Of a stretch of DNA of 64,000 nucleotides, positions 4,003 through 22,540 are shown in pieces. Every line of letters begins with the position of its first letter. The first letter of the stretch is position 1. Source of the stretch: Methylohalobius crimeensis 10Ki (GTDB lineage Bacteria > Pseudomonadota > Gammaproteobacteria > Methylococcales > Methylothermaceae); NCBI RefSeq assembly GCF_000421465.1, contig NZ_ATXB01000001.1, positions 1,922,001 to 1,986,000 of the forward strand. Reading direction: 5' to 3'. The notes beneath the pieces were generated by a model. The model made no database searches and had not been told where the DNA came from. It worked only from the letters and a program-made list of their open reading frames with translations. A program made the translations under genes and the position numbers.

Positions 4003-5040
4003 TCAACCTCCTGAATTTTCGGTTTCGATCAACTCGCGCACCAGACTCGTGGCATAGGCTCCGGAGGGAAGTTCGAAAACAAGCGCCAGATCCGAATCGC
4101 GCCACGTCCAATCCAACTCTCCCACGCGAACCCGGAACGGTCGACGCATTCCCTTGACGCCCGCATTTTCCAAACCTCGAGCCAGCTTCGGACACGCCTC
4201 GATGACTCGACTTTCAATCGCGCCGGCATCCAGGGTCGCCCGCTCTCCTTCCCGCCCCCACAAGGGACCGGTGGGGTGCAGCTGCAACGCGGCCACCCGT
4301 GAGCGAATGTCGGCATCCGGCGATTCAGCCAAAAAACCCGCACCGCCGCCGTCGAACATCAGCCAGTCTCCGGGCAGCGGCGTATGCCAATTGTTTTGCT
4401 CGATCCGGGCGGCAAGCACTTGATTGAACAAGAAAGAGCGGGCTACGGAAAGATACAAGCTGCGCAAATGACGATTGCGAACAACGCTTTGACCGGTCAA
4501 TAGATTTTCCGCCCGGCTCAGATTGCCCCCTTCGCGGCCGAAGCGTTGGGGACCGAAATAATTGGGCATGCCTTGGGCCTTGATCCTCGCCAGAACCGAA
4601 TCTATGCGCTCTCGATCCCCGTTCAAAGCGCGCAGACAGAGCCTGAAACGATTTCCTCGAAGCGCGCCTCGTTTGAGTTTGCGTCGATTGCGCGTGCATT
4701 GGCGTATCCGGATCGTGTCTCCGTTCAATGCGTGCCACGGCAAATCCGGCCGGCCCGGCAGGTGAACGCTGAACCATTGCCACGTCAACCCGTGGCGATC
4801 CTTGAGACCGGCATAACCGATGCGGCCACGGGATACATCCGCAAAGCGGGCCAACATCCCGGCCGCCTGCTCCGTATTGAGCTCGCGCTTTTCGACCCAC
4901 AAAAATACGTGTTCGCCATCACCGGAAGGCTCGAAGCCGAGCACTTCTTCCACCTGGAAATCCTCCGGCTGGCGCTTCAACATCCCTTTTCCATACGGCC
5001 CGCCGTAAACGCGCGGCCAATCCGGAATCGGCCAAGTCAC
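4003..5040 (-). CDS. truD: tRNA pseudouridine(13) synthase TruD
   Basis: TruD isomerises U13 of tRNA-Glu. The 345-residue protein has the early motif [14 protein letters not shown], the catalytic region [19 protein letters not shown] with the active-site aspartate, and [16 protein letters not shown]. coli TruD is 349 residues. I take the GTG at 5040 as start because it overlaps the ispF stop (GTGA) and gives the family length. The same reading frame stays open further upstream inside ispF but has no TruD similarity there. The ispD-ispF-truD order is common in gammaproteobacteria. Confidence 0.95.
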
Positions 5041-18518: not shown

Positions 18519-19742
18519 TCAACCCAACGGCCAAACTCGCGCGTCCCCTCCTTTCAGGAGTACATTCCAGTAATACCAGGGCAGAAAATATTTCTTGAAA
18601 TAATACATACTCCGCCGCTCCTTGCTCTGATCGATGGGGAAGGTTTCCTTGGGCTGCAGATTGTAGTCGAATTCCGCCAATACCAATTTACCGTAACCCG
18701 TGGTCAGAGGACAGGAGGCATAACCGTCGTAGGCGGCGATTCCCTCGCCTCCGCCGATCGCCGTCAACAGATTGCTGACCGCCACATAGGTCTGGCTGCG
18801 TGCTGCGGCGGCGGTTTTGGAGTTGGGGGTGTTCGCGCAATCGCCCAGGCCGTAGACGTTGGGATATTTCAAGTGCCGCAAAGTATGCTTGTCCACATTC
18901 ATCCAGCCACCCTCATCGGCCAAGGGGCTCTCCTTGAGAAAGGCCGGCGGTCGCATCGGCGGAGTCACATGAAGGAAATCGAAAGCGTGCACTTGACGAT
19001 CCCCCGTGGTCACGTGTTCAAGGGTCGCTTCCTTTTTATCGATATCGATCGCGACCAGATGATGCTGGAAATGGGTCTCGATTTCCTTGCGTTTGAGGAC
19101 CTCGTTGAGGGTTTTGGCGTAACGTTTGACCGGAAAGATGCCGGGAGCGGCCGAAAAAAACATTTGTTTTATTTTGCCGCGCACATTGCGCTTGCGCCAC
19201 GCGTCATCCGCTAAATAAGCGATCTTCTGGGCCGCGCCGGGACATTTGAACGGGGGTTTCGGCTGGGTGAAAATCGCCGTTCCTCCGCCAAACCCTTTAA
19301 TGGCCTCCCAAACCTGGGGCGCCAGATCGTAATCGTAAATCGAAACCACCCCCATATTCCGCTGCAAGGCCTCCTGAAGCCCCGGGATCGAATCCCAGGC
19401 GATTTCGATGCCCGTGGCCACCACCAGGTATTCGTAACTGATCTGATTGCCCGAACGGGTGGTGAGCGAATTATTATCAGGATCAAAGCTCTGCACGGCA
19501 TCGTGAATCCAGGTCACGCCCTCCGGAATCACTTCCTTCATGGATCGCCAGGTGGACTTGGGCTTCATCTCCCCGGCGCCGACCAAGGTCCAACCGGGTT
19601 GATAGTAATGCACGTCCTTAGGCTCCAACACCGCCACATCCAGCGTCCCTGACTCATCGAATTTCTTTAAATGCGCGGCTACGGCTACGCCTGCGGTTCC
19701 CCCGCCGACGATAACGACTTGATGGGAAATTGCGTCAGACAT
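18519..19742 (-). CDS. Sulfide:quinone oxidoreductase family flavoprotein
   Basis: Oxidises sulfide and passes electrons to the membrane quinone pool; the sulfane product is handed to an acceptor. The 407-residue protein has an N-terminal FAD dinucleotide fold (VVIVGGGTAGVAVAAHL), a second VYGLGDCANTPNSKTAAA flavin-binding segment, and two cysteines in the redox positions, C167 (FKCPGAAQKIAYLAD) and C344 (GYASCPLTTGYG), as in type II (mitochondrial-type) SQRs. It is 64 bp downstream of regA on the same strand, with a strong AGGAGGAG ribosome binding site. A paralog lies at 58399-59649. Confidence 0.88.
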   Translation of the reverse strand: MSDAISHQVVIVGGGTAGVAVAAHLKKFDESGTLDVAVLEPKDVHYYQPGWTLVGAGEMKPKSTWRSMKEVIPEGVTWIHDAVQSFDPDNNSLTTRSGNQISYEYLVVATGIEIAWDSIPGLQEALQRNMGVVSIYDYDLAPQVWEAIKGFGGGTAIFTQPKPPFKCPGAAQKIAYLADDAWRKRNVRGKIKQMFFSAAPGIFPVKRYAKTLNEVLKRKEIETHFQHHLVAIDIDKKEATLEHVTTGDRQVHAFDFLHVTPPMRPPAFLKESPLADEGGWMNVDKHTLRHLKYPNVYGLGDCANTPNSKTAAAARSQTYVAVSNLLTAIGGGEGIAAYDGYASCPLTTGYGKLVLAEFDYNLQPKETFPIDQSKERRSMYYFKKYFLPWYYWNVLLKGGDARVWPLG

Positions 19743-19807: not shown

Positions 19808-20344
19808 TCATTCCTTGACCGGCCGCTTGTCTAGTTTACGCTGCAAAGTTCGTCGATGCATCCCGAGCGCCCTCGCGGCTGCGGAAATGTTTCCTTCGTG
19901 CTCCATCAACACCTTCTGCAAATACTCCCACTCCATCCGCTTGACCGACAAGGGCTTATCTTTTAACTCCACGTCCGGGTCTCCGCTTTGCTTATGGAGT
20001 GCGGCGACGATCTCGTCCGCATCGGCCGGCTTGGTCAAATAATGAACGGCGCCCAACTTGATCGCTTCCACCGCCGTGGCGATACTGGCATAGCCGGTCA
20101 ATATCACGATGCGGGTATTGATATCCAGCTCTTTCAGTTTCTTGACCAAGACCAATCCCGAATCGTGGCCGATTCTAAGATCGATCACCGCATATTCGGG
20201 GGTTAATTGGGTCGCCTGTTCCAAACCGGATTCCACGGTCCGGGCGACCGCCACATCGAAACCGCGTTTTTTCAAGGCTCGCTCGAGCACCCAGCAAAAG
20301 GTTTCGTCATCGTCGACCAATAACAGCCGCGGTTGATCACTCAT
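19808..20344 (-). CDS. regA: Redox response regulator of the RegA/PrrA/ActR family
   Basis: The 178-residue regulator has a receiver domain with acidic pocket (VDDD, residues 10-13), phosphoacceptor D55 in VIDLRIGHDSG, and lysine in YLTKPAD, then a short linker and a C-terminal Fis-type helix-turn-helix (NISAAARALGMHRRTLQRKLDKRP). This is the typical RegA layout; the HTH is nearly invariant in the family. It overlaps the kinase gene by eight bases. RegA-family proteins control respiration, oxidases and carbon fixation in response to redox state. Confidence 0.92.
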   Translation of the reverse strand: MSDQPRLLLVDDDETFCWVLERALKKRGFDVAVARTVESGLEQATQLTPEYAVIDLRIGHDSGLVLVKKLKELDINTRIVILTGYASIATAVEAIKLGAVHYLTKPADADEIVAALHKQSGDPDVELKDKPLSVKRMEWEYLQKVLMEHEGNISAAARALGMHRRTLQRKLDKRPVKE

Positions 20345-21668
20345 CGCTTTCCTCCTCGGCGTGCTGATTCAGCAAAGGCAGTTGAATGTGAGTCCGGGTT
20401 CCGCCGGCGGGCATGGATTGCATTTCGATTTCTCCCCCCAGGCGTTCCACGGTGGCATAGGATAAAAACAAGCCCACACCCAAGCCCTGCTTGGAAGACA
20501 CCACCGGATATCTGCCCAGCTGTTGGGTCAAGCCCGGATTGATGCCGGGACCTTGATCGATAATCAACAGTTCGAGCCGATAACAATCCCAGGACGCGGT
20601 TAATTCCACCACCTCCGGCGAAACTTCGGCGGCGTTGTTGAGAATGTTGATCAGAGCATGGCTCAATGTCCGCTCGGCAATGATTTTGGCTCGGGGATCC
20701 TCTTTCGTGACTTGGAACTTCAAGCGGGCGCCGGAATACTGTTGACGCCATTGCTGGACCAGTTTTTCCAAATAGCGTCGAACTTCTTCCATGTGCCCTG
20801 ATTCGGCCCGCCTTTGGCCGGCGGAGGCCGACATCACCGCCAACGCGTTTTTGCAACGTTCGATTTGATCCTTGAAAATCAGCAGGCGCTGACGTAATTC
20901 CGCATGATCCCCACCGGGATAATCCTCCAGCAGCTCTTGCACCAGAATCGTCATCGTGCCCAAAGGGGTGCCGATCTCGTGGGCGGCTCCGGCGGCCAGG
21001 GTTCCCAAGGCCACCACTTGTTCGTCGCGCAAACTTTGTTCGCGTGCTTCCGCGAGCCTGCGCTCTCGCTCTCGCAGCGTATTGGCCATTTCCACCACGA
21101 AATAAGCCACCAAACCGGCACTGAAAACGAACCCCACCCAGGTACCGAAAGCGCGCAATCCGAACCCCGGATAGTCTTCCAATAACTCCAAGGGCAAGCG
21201 ATCGGTTTGCACTTCCGCAACGGGAAGCGGGGGTAGAGGATGGTAATAAACAATCAAAAAAGTATAGGCGCCGCAAGCCAGGAATACCATGTACCAGGTA
21301 TAGCGTTGAGGCAAAACGGTAGCGGTGATGATCAGCGGCAATAATAGAAACCATGCCATGGGATTGGAGGTCCCTCCGGCAAAATACAACAAGCCGGTAA
21401 TTCCCAAAGCATCCAGGCATAAGTGGCAAAACAATTCCAGCTCGGTGACCGGACGTTTTTCTTGCAGCCGATACCAAGTGAGACAATTCACCGCCACCAT
21501 TACCGAGATAATGCCCCACAAGGGATTGATGGGCAGGGGAACGCCGAGATCGTAAACCGTAATGCCAATGATTAAAGCATCGCCGGTGATCAATAAATTC
21601 CGCAATACAAACAACCACTTGAGATTGCGTCGTGCGGCATCGGCGGAATCGATGGAAGGGTACAGCAT
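20337..21668 (-). CDS. regB: Redox sensor histidine kinase of the RegB/PrrB family
   Basis: A 443-residue membrane kinase with about six transmembrane segments in residues 1-195. It has the RegB ubiquinone-site motif GGTSNPM (98-104), the H box AAGAAHEIGTPLGTM with H230, and the redox-sensitive cysteine region RCKNALAVMSASAG with C272, equivalent to the reactive cysteine of Rhodobacter RegB. The ATPase region includes NILNNAAEVSP and IDQGPGI. It forms an operon with regA and probably sqr. Its upstream region carries a RegA-like box at 21695-21711. Confidence 0.93.
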   Translation of the reverse strand: MLYPSIDSADAARRNLKWLFVLRNLLITGDALIIGITVYDLGVPLPINPLWGIISVMVAVNCLTWYRLQEKRPVTELELFCHLCLDALGITGLLYFAGGTSNPMAWFLLLPLIITATVLPQRYTWYMVFLACGAYTFLIVYYHPLPPLPVAEVQTDRLPLELLEDYPGFGLRAFGTWVGFVFSAGLVAYFVVEMANTLRERERRLAEAREQSLRDEQVVALGTLAAGAAHEIGTPLGTMTILVQELLEDYPGGDHAELRQRLLIFKDQIERCKNALAVMSASAGQRRAESGHMEEVRRYLEKLVQQWRQQYSGARLKFQVTKEDPRAKIIAERTLSHALINILNNAAEVSPEVVELTASWDCYRLELLIIDQGPGINPGLTQQLGRYPVVSSKQGLGVGLFLSYATVERLGGEIEMQSMPAGGTRTHIQLPLLNQHAEEESDE

Positions 21669-21694
21669 AGGGTGTTATCGGTGATATTCGCGGG

Positions 21695-21711
21695 TGCGAC
21701 AATTTGCCACA
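21695..21711. promoter_or_regulatory. Candidate RegA box 1 (imperfect)
   Basis: TGCGACAATTTGCCACA matches the RegA/PrrA-type arrangement GCGNC-N5-GNCGC except for one base in the right half. Its centre is 32 bp upstream of a -10-like TATCTT (21735-21740, with a TG two bases before it) of the first sRNA-like unit, and 35 bp upstream of the divergent regB start, so it could serve both directions. Confidence 0.5.
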
Positions 21712-21747
21712 TTCCAAAGTTCAGCATCCATTGCTATCTTTGTCCTC

Positions 21748-21843
21748 AAGGTAATGCTCATTACCTCCTGTCTCGCTAGTTTTGAGCGTGCGACCTTTCC
21801 TCCTCTTTGCAGGGAGTCCAACTCCCTGCAAGGCTTCTTTTTT
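21748..21843 (+). ncRNA. Putative small RNA 1 (RegA-boxed, anti-SD motif)
   Basis: No reading frame of interest. The predicted start (about 21748) is seven bases after the -10-like TATCTT. The RNA would contain a 5' hairpin AGGTAATG-CT-CATTACCT (21749-21766), an unpaired linker, the C-rich motif CCTCCTCTTTG (21799-21809), and an intrinsic terminator: an 11-bp stem (21807-21817 with 21821-21831, loop CCA) followed by CTTCTTTTTT. The same order of elements recurs 180 bp downstream in a second unit. Ends are predictions. Confidence 0.6.
21807..21843 (+). terminator. Intrinsic terminator of putative sRNA 1
   Basis: Perfect stem TTGCAGGGAGT/ACTCCCTGCAA with a three-base loop, followed by a T-rich run ending in six T. 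It points to the plus strand, where no protein gene lies upstream, which is a reason to infer an RNA gene. Confidence 0.8.
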
Positions 21844-21874
21844 AAAATCTGCATAAACTGGGTTTTTGCCCACC

Positions 21875-21891
21875 TGCGACAATATGTCGCA
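21875..21891. promoter_or_regulatory. Candidate RegA box 2 (perfect palindrome)
   Basis: TGCGACAATATGTCGCA is an exact inverted repeat (7-bp arms, 3-bp centre) and fits GCGNC-N5-GNCGC fully. Its centre is 32 bp upstream of a TG-extended -10-like TAAGCT (21915-21920), the same distance as in unit 1, which would place it over the -35 region. Confidence 0.6.
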
Positions 21892-21927
21892 TTCCCATCC
21901 TATCCAATCGTTGTTAAGCTGGATCCC

Positions 21928-22017
21928 GAGTTCGGCATTACCGAACTGTTATTGCATGACAGTAGTGCAATACTCCTCCTCTTTGACAGCAGGGCCTCAA
22001 CACCCTGCTGTTTTTTT
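21928..22017 (+). ncRNA. Putative small RNA 2 (RegA-boxed, anti-SD motif)
   Basis: Predicted RNA of about 90 nt: 5' hairpin AGTTCGG-CATTA-CCGAACT (21929-21947), a second weak hairpin ATTGCA-N9-TGCAAT, the C-rich stretch ACTCCTCCTCTTTG (21972-21985) and a terminator with a 9-bp stem plus seven T (21986-22017). It shares the box, spacing, 5' hairpin, CCTCCTCTTTG motif and terminator with unit 1, so the two look like sibling RNAs. It ends inside the stop codon of the convergent GlcG-like gene. ACTCCTCCT is complementary to the sqr ribosome binding site. Ends are predictions. Confidence 0.62.
21986..22017 (+). terminator. Intrinsic terminator of putative sRNA 2
   Basis: Stem ACAGCAGGG/CCCTGCTGT with loop CCTCAACA and seven consecutive T. 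Oriented to the plus strand; the opposite orientation has no T tract. Confidence 0.85.
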
Positions 22018-22525
22018 ATCCATCGTCCAATTCCACTCCGATCGCCTTGAGGCCGGCCCGCGCACAAGCCACATCCAGCATCGCGCCGGGCGCTCCGCCC
22101 ACGCCGATTCCGCCCACGACATGCCCATCGGCACGGATCGGCAAACCGCCACCGAGTATCAAGATCGACTCATTCATGTCGTGCAATGCCTGGATCTCGG
22201 GATCCTTGGCGATCATGCGCGCCAACTCGTGCGTCGGCTTACGTAAGCTCAACGCCGTATAGGCTTTGCGCCAACTGCTATCCAGGGTATGGGGGCCGGC
22301 GCCGTTACTGCGCAGCGATACCAGCGAGTGTCCGGCGTCATCCACCACGGCGGCGCCGATTTCATAGCCTTTGGCTTGACAATCCGCCAGCGCCGCCTTG
22401 GCCGCCTTGGCCGCCTGCAAAGCATCGTTCATGGACAGCGTGGCGCGCTGAAGCGGCGCCAATTCGCCGGCATCAGCAAGCGTGAACCAAGCCGTCAACC
22501 CTATCGCGAACAACCGATTCCACAT
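22016..22525 (-). CDS. GlcG/HbpS-family (DUF336) secreted protein
   Basis: A 169-residue protein with a signal peptide (MWNRLFAIGLTAWFTLADAG) and a GlcG/HbpS-type domain: LQAAKAAKAALADCQAKGY, GAAVVDDAGHSLVSLRS, TLDSSWRKAYTAL, and a C-terminal GGGLPIRADGHVVGGIGVGG. HbpS-type members bind haem or corrinoids and can act as redox sensors; GlcG members lie in glycolate clusters. Function here is open. The ATG at 22525 has GGAGGTAAAT just upstream. It follows the class II aldolase-like gene by 15 bp. Confidence 0.82.
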   Translation of the reverse strand: MWNRLFAIGLTAWFTLADAGELAPLQRATLSMNDALQAAKAAKAALADCQAKGYEIGAAVVDDAGHSLVSLRSNGAGPHTLDSSWRKAYTALSLRKPTHELARMIAKDPEIQALHDMNESILILGGGLPIRADGHVVGGIGVGGAPGAMLDVACARAGLKAIGVELDDG

Positions 22526-22540
22526 ATTTACCTCCATCGA

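Follow-up and report, generated by a model that had tools for sequence, protein, structure and literature searches.

In the window, a term used here for the whole 64,000-nucleotide stretch of DNA that was analyzed, two small RNA (sRNA) genes lie in tandem and divergent from regB. Judged from its sequence, the region encodes a real sRNA gene pair that belongs to an apparently undescribed family of a known general kind. The explanation that best accounts for the data as a whole, and that is considered likely, is that the two units specify sRNAs, about 96 and 90 nt long, that act in trans, are activated by RegA and, aided by Hfq, pair with Shine-Dalgarno (SD) sequences, and that throughout the order Methylococcales RegBA has such an RNA as its partner, which occurs in tandem in this genus and some others.

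The window forms part of contig 1 of a 3.51-Mb genome that is approximately 99% complete (Methylothermaceae, order Methylococcales). The response regulator RegA, which has a Fis-type HTH, is encoded at 19808..20344 and the redox sensor kinase RegB at 20337..21668, both on the minus strand. Their best NCBIfam matches, ActR_PrrA_rreg (192 bits; curated cut-off 250) and ActS_PrrB_HisK (214 bits; curated cut-off 350), correspond to the ActR/PrrA/RegA and ActS/PrrB/RegB families at scores below the curated cut-offs. On the other side of the sRNA pair, an HbpS/GlcG-like gene (22016-22537, minus strand) is convergent on unit 2. A type III sulfide:quinone reductase-like gene, whose score also falls below the curated cut-off, is located 3' of regA (18519-19742), and such a gene is linked to regA in the longer loci of three relatives (L041, L059 and L063).

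The two units (21695-22017) are read from the plus strand, and each comprises a RegA-type box, an extended -10-like hexamer, hairpins, a CCUCC linker predicted to be unpaired and an intrinsic terminator. Box 1 (TGCGACAATTTGCCACA, 21695..21711) has its center 35 bp upstream of the regB start codon and its end 27 bp from it, and box 2 (TGCGACAATATGTCGCA, 21875..21891) is a near-perfect palindrome. The hexamers, TATCTT preceded by TGC in unit 1 (21735..21740) and TAAGCT after TGn in unit 2 (21915..21920), start 32 bp from the respective box centers, and a CCTCCTCTTTG stretch follows the 15-bp box core by 88 bp in unit 1 and 84 bp in unit 2. The boxes, the 32-bp spacing, the CCTCCTCTTTG stretches and the plus-strand terminators were all found where the original prediction had placed them.

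Predicted sRNA 1 (21748..21843, about 96 nt; orthologues in alignment A2) has a start deduced from the -10 element and an end deduced from the T run. Its 5' hairpin, GGTAAT-GCTC-ATTACC (21750..21765), is followed by a second CCTCCT (21764-21769) and by the anti-SD-like CCTCCTCTTTG (21799..21809), the first six bases of which are predicted to be unpaired (0.98). The predicted stem of its terminator (21805..21843) begins inside CTTTG, occupies 21805-21833 and is succeeded by a T-rich tail. Predicted sRNA 2 (21927..22017, about 90 nt) is nearly invariant from 21952 on in seven genomes, the terminator loop excepted. It carries a 5' hairpin, AGTTCGG...CCGAACT (21929..21947), a second hairpin, ATTGCA...TGCAAT, with an invariant loop (21951..21971), and the anti-SD-like CTCCTCCTCTTTG (21973..21985, with CCTCCTCTTTG at 21975-21985), in which CCTCCT is predicted to be unpaired (0.96) and is invariant in the seven genomes; the T run of its terminator (21985..22017, stem site 21985-22012) overlaps the convergent gene at its stop codon. 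The short 5' hairpin that had been assigned to both units is present in the minimum free energy structure of unit 2 and in that of unit 1 from six relatives, but the window copy of unit 1 adopts a longer pairing.

In neither unit does any of 200 shuffles fold as well as the predicted RNA (z-scores of -4.68 for unit 1 and -5.86 for unit 2), and a terminator scan of both strands of 1 kb returned three sites, including the two unit terminators on the plus strand, against a mean of 0.8 in shuffles. Each unit is predicted to possess its own promoter, an intrinsic terminator and a stable fold, without a conserved reading frame. In the predicted folds of units, 5' hairpins are followed by a linker that is largely unpaired and then by a terminator. 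The unpaired probability of CCUCC has a median of 0.96 in 35 units (above 0.8 in 24 of them; lowest value 0.38), and the corresponding UCCU-type stretch of 18 units without CCUCC has a median of 0.85. Covariation is detected in the terminator stem, at three of nine pairs in family f8 (alignment A7) and at four of eight pairs in f1 plus f4 (A8). No covarying pair was found within the genus alignments because unit 2 is too conserved there, and the 5' hairpins align too poorly across families for covariation to be scored.

The motif TGCGACAANNTGYCRCA, with at most one mismatch, occurs at three places in the genome, two of which are at these units, and its backwards control at none, which bears out the claim that the repeated arrangement exceeds chance. 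A two-mismatch box scan of the window performed no better than shuffles (10 matches versus a mean of 6.1, with 15 of 100 shuffles reaching 10), so that within the window only perfect sites count. As -10 elements, the window hexamers TATCTT and TAAGCT are weak, matching TATAAT at four and three of six positions, and the unit-2 hexamer of the six relatives matches at four or five (TATGAT in three). A consensus sigma-70 scan at the units yielded no -35/-10 pair, which is to be expected if an activator replaces the -35 element. Among 58 box-to-CCTCCT matches from 53 named loci that were not chosen for a -10, many of them from related species and hence not independent, the best TATAAT-like hexamer is situated 31-32 bp from the box center in 48; shuffling of the downstream bases placed it there in a mean of 6.7 of 58 (maximum of 14 in 500 rounds). 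Several of the 58 matches resemble, by eye, promoters of protein genes, so that the box and a -10 at a fixed distance from it together have the appearance of a general type of activated promoter.

Conservation in relatives, which the original prediction had named in advance as a test, was observed in the genus: the pair is present in the genome of the window and in six of the nine others (7/10 by BLASTN), and the strict box-to-CCTCCT pattern identifies two units in each of these seven. A covariance model built from unit 2 of the seven genomes and containing no box (R1) matches the same seven (E <= 5e-16) and none of the other three. Full-length RegA, in concordance with BLAST, occurs in exactly the seven genomes that carry the pair, the remaining three giving only receiver-domain matches for RegA and kinase-domain matches for RegB. 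RegB was checked in five genomes of the genus and is full-length only in the two with RegA. Since the sRNA and regBA genes are linked, this 7-to-3 co-occurrence is counted as one or few events and may reflect a single joint loss. In the seven genomes, unit 2 retains long stretches without any change, among them the unpaired linker, and the RegB proteins of the six relatives are only 67-71% identical to that of the window. Hfq is present in nine of the ten genomes, that of the window included.

Beyond the genus, R1 also matches six genomes of families f3 and f4 (E 0.003-0.008), and at the four f4 matches (G012, G027, G059 and G064) the RNA is divergent from regB with a zero-mismatch box just upstream. 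The strict box-to-CCTCCT pattern is found in 25 of 311 genomes of the order (backwards control 0), and RegA in 288 of 311 at E <= 1e-35. DNA upstream of regB was taken from 40 of the RegA-bearing genomes, all of which have RegB. In 28 of these, a box that deviates at no more than two positions is found within 420 bp and is directed away from regB, and in 27 (11/14 in f4, 16/26 in f8) it is accompanied by an intrinsic terminator, the stem of which begins 103-140 bp beyond the box start, L268 having the box without a terminator. Dinucleotide-keeping shuffles produced such a box in a mean of 0.013 of 40, with a maximum of one over 300 rounds. The other 12, with RegA and RegB, have no box near regB (L261, L262, L270, L273, L274, L278, L279, L284 and L286-L289). 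Further units divergent from regB are found in L008 (f5), L050 (f2), L035 (f8) and L046 (f4), the contig of the last ending before any terminator. G054 and G039 contain two complete CCUCC-bearing units in tandem, and G030 has two boxes, its first unit having a poor terminator and no CCUCC. Outside the order, boxes are situated near RegBA homologues at L023, L027, L040 and L058; in L040, a Desulfobulbaceae MAG with RegB/RegA homologues, a divergent box is associated with a CCTCCT-bearing stretch (4162-4262).

Several additional loci carry similar elements. Similar tandem copies of units are found in f3 and f2 (L033, L054, L050 and L053), and extra CCTCCTCTTGA repeats occur without a nearby box (L012 and L053); together they suggest repeated duplication. 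The f6 genome G028 has a box of this type followed by a terminator-ended stretch with CTCCCTTTG (L010, 1501-1660), which is perhaps a more distant, unlinked relative. In Nitrosomonas and similar ammonia-oxidizers (L038, L045, L049, L052, L057, L062 and L065), a RegA-type box and a -10 at 32 bp are combined with a CCCTCC-bearing RNA-like stretch; in the predicted folds of L038, L052 and L057, the two ends pair and CCCTCC occupies the apical loop. These stretches perhaps represent an analogous redox-controlled anti-SD RNA.

A ChIP list of RegA sites in Rhodobacter capsulatus includes, in the ccoN group row, GCGACCGTTCGTCGC, whose half-sites and spacing equal those of the boxes described here, the other sites in the list being much more degenerate (PMC5359404). 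This match, together with the RegBA link, makes RegA the best candidate regulator, and the units are probably sibling sRNA genes beside RegBA that are driven by RegA. Control by RegBA, as originally proposed, has gained strong comparative support from RegA/RegB co-occurrence, divergent regB linkage, the fixed -10 spacing and conserved terminators, but the parallel with CcsR that accompanied it is weak (see below). The third perfect box of the genome (L016 1501-1517; genome C1:1070295-1070311) is flanked by a copZ-like HMA gene and, downstream, by an HMA-DsbD_2 gene, and is accompanied by a TATAAT-like hexamer at approximately the spacing seen in the units. The seven genomes of the genus with RegA all carry it at this locus, the sRNA promoters being in each of them the other two of the three perfect box loci, and so do G005 and G006, both without RegA and RegB (relatives of the locus: L237, L239-L242, L252, L253 and L255). 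Its core is nearly constant, and the flanking inverted-repeat arms, which change together and form longer inverted repeats, may also have a role in RNA. As confirmation of a RegA regulon, this box is weakened by its retention in two genomes without RegBA, in which another regulator may read the motif; alternatively, these drafts may have recently lost RegBA or be incomplete.

It is improbable that the palindrome is generally read by some other regulator and that the tie to regBA is positional only. Such a regulator would account for the copZ/DsbD_2 box of G005 and G006, and two studies point the same way, reporting that prediction of a RegA motif was not possible for At. ferrooxidans (PMC5506826) and that PrrA has no strong consensus in R. 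sphaeroides (PMC4263372). However, the sRNA boxes of the genus are restricted to genomes with RegA (7/7 versus 0/3), boxes adjoin RegBA homologues even outside the order, and the half-sites and spacing coincide with an R. capsulatus RegA ChIP site (PMC5359404). The proximity of box 1 to the regB start codon could indicate that the box serves regB autoregulation, with the divergent transcripts being terminated by-products. This is very improbable, as unit 1 separates box 2 from regB and leaves it without a minus-strand gene of its own, the sequence of unit 2 hardly varies downstream of its promoter, and the Methyloprofundus-type units, like those of f3, have no regB within the loci examined. 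Hardly any credence can be given to the units being small open reading frames instead of regulatory RNAs: a mechanical 118-aa plus-strand frame does span both, but it crosses both terminators and box 2, and alignments A2, A3, A7 and A8 contain frame-breaking indels, whose lengths are not multiples of three, and have no start codon in common.

No Rfam family reached its gathering score over the units, whether of the window or of the 16 loci checked, the searches returning only tRNA elsewhere, and only weak matches below the cut-off were obtained over the units up to an E of 5. RF02278 was rejected, with no match in the window at the gathering score, none in 21650-22060 up to an E of 5 and none in the genome of the window at an E of 0.1. 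The Burkholderia families ncS25 (RF02869) and ncS16 (RF02866) were also rejected, reaching 18.2 and 14.7 bits on the strand of the units against gathering scores of 46 and 48. The ncS25 model had no match anywhere in 369 genomes of the class, controls included, and is thus uninformative. RF02278-like matches occur in 185 of the 369 genomes at E <= 0.1, only two of them above the gathering score; as five of 14 control genomes match as well, many of these are due to chance. The best 30 RF02278-like loci of this sample (E of about 2e-6 or better) contain CCTCC without exception and have no RegA box (at most two mismatches) within 150 bp upstream, which implies that anti-SD sRNAs in general do not carry the box. 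Despite strong scores, 28 of these 30 loci (L296-L325) remain below the gathering score, and the RF02278 model may be too narrow.

The units had initially been compared with CcsR of Rhodobacter, whose RNAs carry a C-rich motif. The comparison is weak: CcsR1-4 are likewise several related RNAs, but they are described as co-transcribed with the upstream gene ccaF1 within the RpoE/RpoH network and not as independent RegA-boxed genes, whereas both units here are equipped with a box and a terminator of their own and regB diverges from the pair; CcsR was rejected as a parent family on origin and control (PMC8307010). By analogy, the NmsR siblings of Neisseria meningitidis are a closer parallel, being two sRNAs with three stem-loops that repress several mRNAs through single-stranded, UC-rich anti-SD regions, although they are tied to the stringent response via RelA and not to RegA (PMC5362039). 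Paired sRNAs, stem-loops and a predicted single-stranded UC-rich region are also traits of the units, a likeness of kind and not of descent. OmrA and OmrB of enterobacteria are tandem sRNAs under the two-component regulator OmpR. PcrZ, an sRNA in the RegA/PrrA network of R. sphaeroides, is said to have been found PrrA-dependent by Mank et al. in 2012, and to our knowledge no box, tandem arrangement or regB linkage has been described for it. Unlike the units, PcrZ is concerned with photosynthesis regulation, and it forms with PrrA an incoherent loop around appA (PMC4263372). Enterobacterial FnrS, under FNR, is a further case of a redox regulator acting via an sRNA (PMC4263372). FnrS and OmrA/OmrB depend on other regulators and resemble the units by description, not by sequence. 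The RF02278 'toxic' sRNAs of Burkholderia, for which a 'common upstream motif' is reported, are similar to the units in being short and terminator-ended, in having unpaired, CU-rich stretches with complementarity to ribosome binding sites and in numbering several homologues per genome (PMC5688073). They differ in that their covariance model does not match the window and the 30 best RF02278-like loci of the class sample are devoid of the RegA box in the 150 bp upstream.

Anti-SD repression of other messages by both RNAs is plausible as a model, and the conserved, mostly unpaired linker and the presence of an Hfq gene are consistent with action at ribosome binding sites. Extended SD sites (AAGAGGAG-N3-11-ATG), given as raw counts per genus genome, are no commoner in the seven genomes with the pair (28, 9, 19, 15, 12, 14, 10) than in the three without (13, 25, 16). 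All ten genomes exceed the backwards control (13, 5, 6, 4, 5, 8, 2 with the pair; 10, 4, 3 without), as real SD sequences would give. Among the matches listed, of which 80 regions were examined (74 from sRNA-bearing genomes, with no G009 match among them), no convincing conserved SD target set emerged, orthologue clusters of candidate targets being few, too small or partly common to genomes without the pair; this search was crude and therefore lowers the anti-SD claim rather than closing it. The matches include, as judged from the N-termini, methanol-dehydrogenase-like genes in two genomes, which are not claimed as targets.

These counts bear on an alternative, considered unlikely, in which the RegA-activated sRNAs are real but their C-rich linker does not serve as an anti-SD seed, the RNAs instead pairing elsewhere (coding sequence or other RNAs) or binding a protein, to which the conservation of CCUCC would be due. 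The lack of enrichment of SD-type complementary sites in sRNA-bearing genomes, as far as a crude search can tell, would agree with this alternative. Moreover, most f8 units have UCUUCCUAA or a similar stretch in place of CCUCC, which fits weaker SD pairing or another role, and the second hairpin of unit 2 and its loop are about as invariant as the linker. Nevertheless, the linker is predicted to be unpaired in most units and is common to f1, f2, f3, f4 and f5 despite differing 5' parts, and UC-rich regions of such a kind act as anti-SD elements in NmsR (PMC5362039).

According to the preferred explanation of RegA-activated, SD-pairing sRNAs, active RegB would phosphorylate RegA, which would bind the two palindromes, whose box and spacing place their centers at about -44. 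Bound RegA would then activate the weak extended -10 promoters of both units. Each RNA would end at its intrinsic terminator and expose, in the predicted and conserved fold, a single-stranded UCCUCC linker between structured parts. This linker may pair with purine-rich SD regions, probably with Hfq, and the translation of a set of mRNAs would be lowered when the quinone/redox state demands.

RegBA controls methanol growth in Methylomonas sp. DH-1, in which only feo, among three candidate target promoters tested, was bound by RegA; the route to other effects was left open, and indirect RegA effects on tonB and a TonB-dependent receptor are described (PMC13274454). An order-wide family of RegA-boxed sRNAs beside regB is a concrete candidate for that route. 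In the open-access literature searched, outside which most subscription papers lie, no regulator-tied sRNA family is reported for Methylococcales; EcpR1 and alpha-r45 are sRNAs of the alphaproteobacterial methanotroph Methylosinus sporium 5 (PMC12403871), and a synthetic sRNA has been used in Methylomonas (PMC7720504). RegA probably acts partly through RNAs, and these may block ribosome binding on other messages. It is further proposed, tentatively and with some doubt, that in gammaproteobacterial methanotrophs the ancestral conserved output of RegBA is the regB-divergent sRNA and that much of the RegA regulon is post-transcriptional. If this is true, the effects on tonB and the TonB-dependent receptor in DH-1 could have such RNAs as their missing intermediary.
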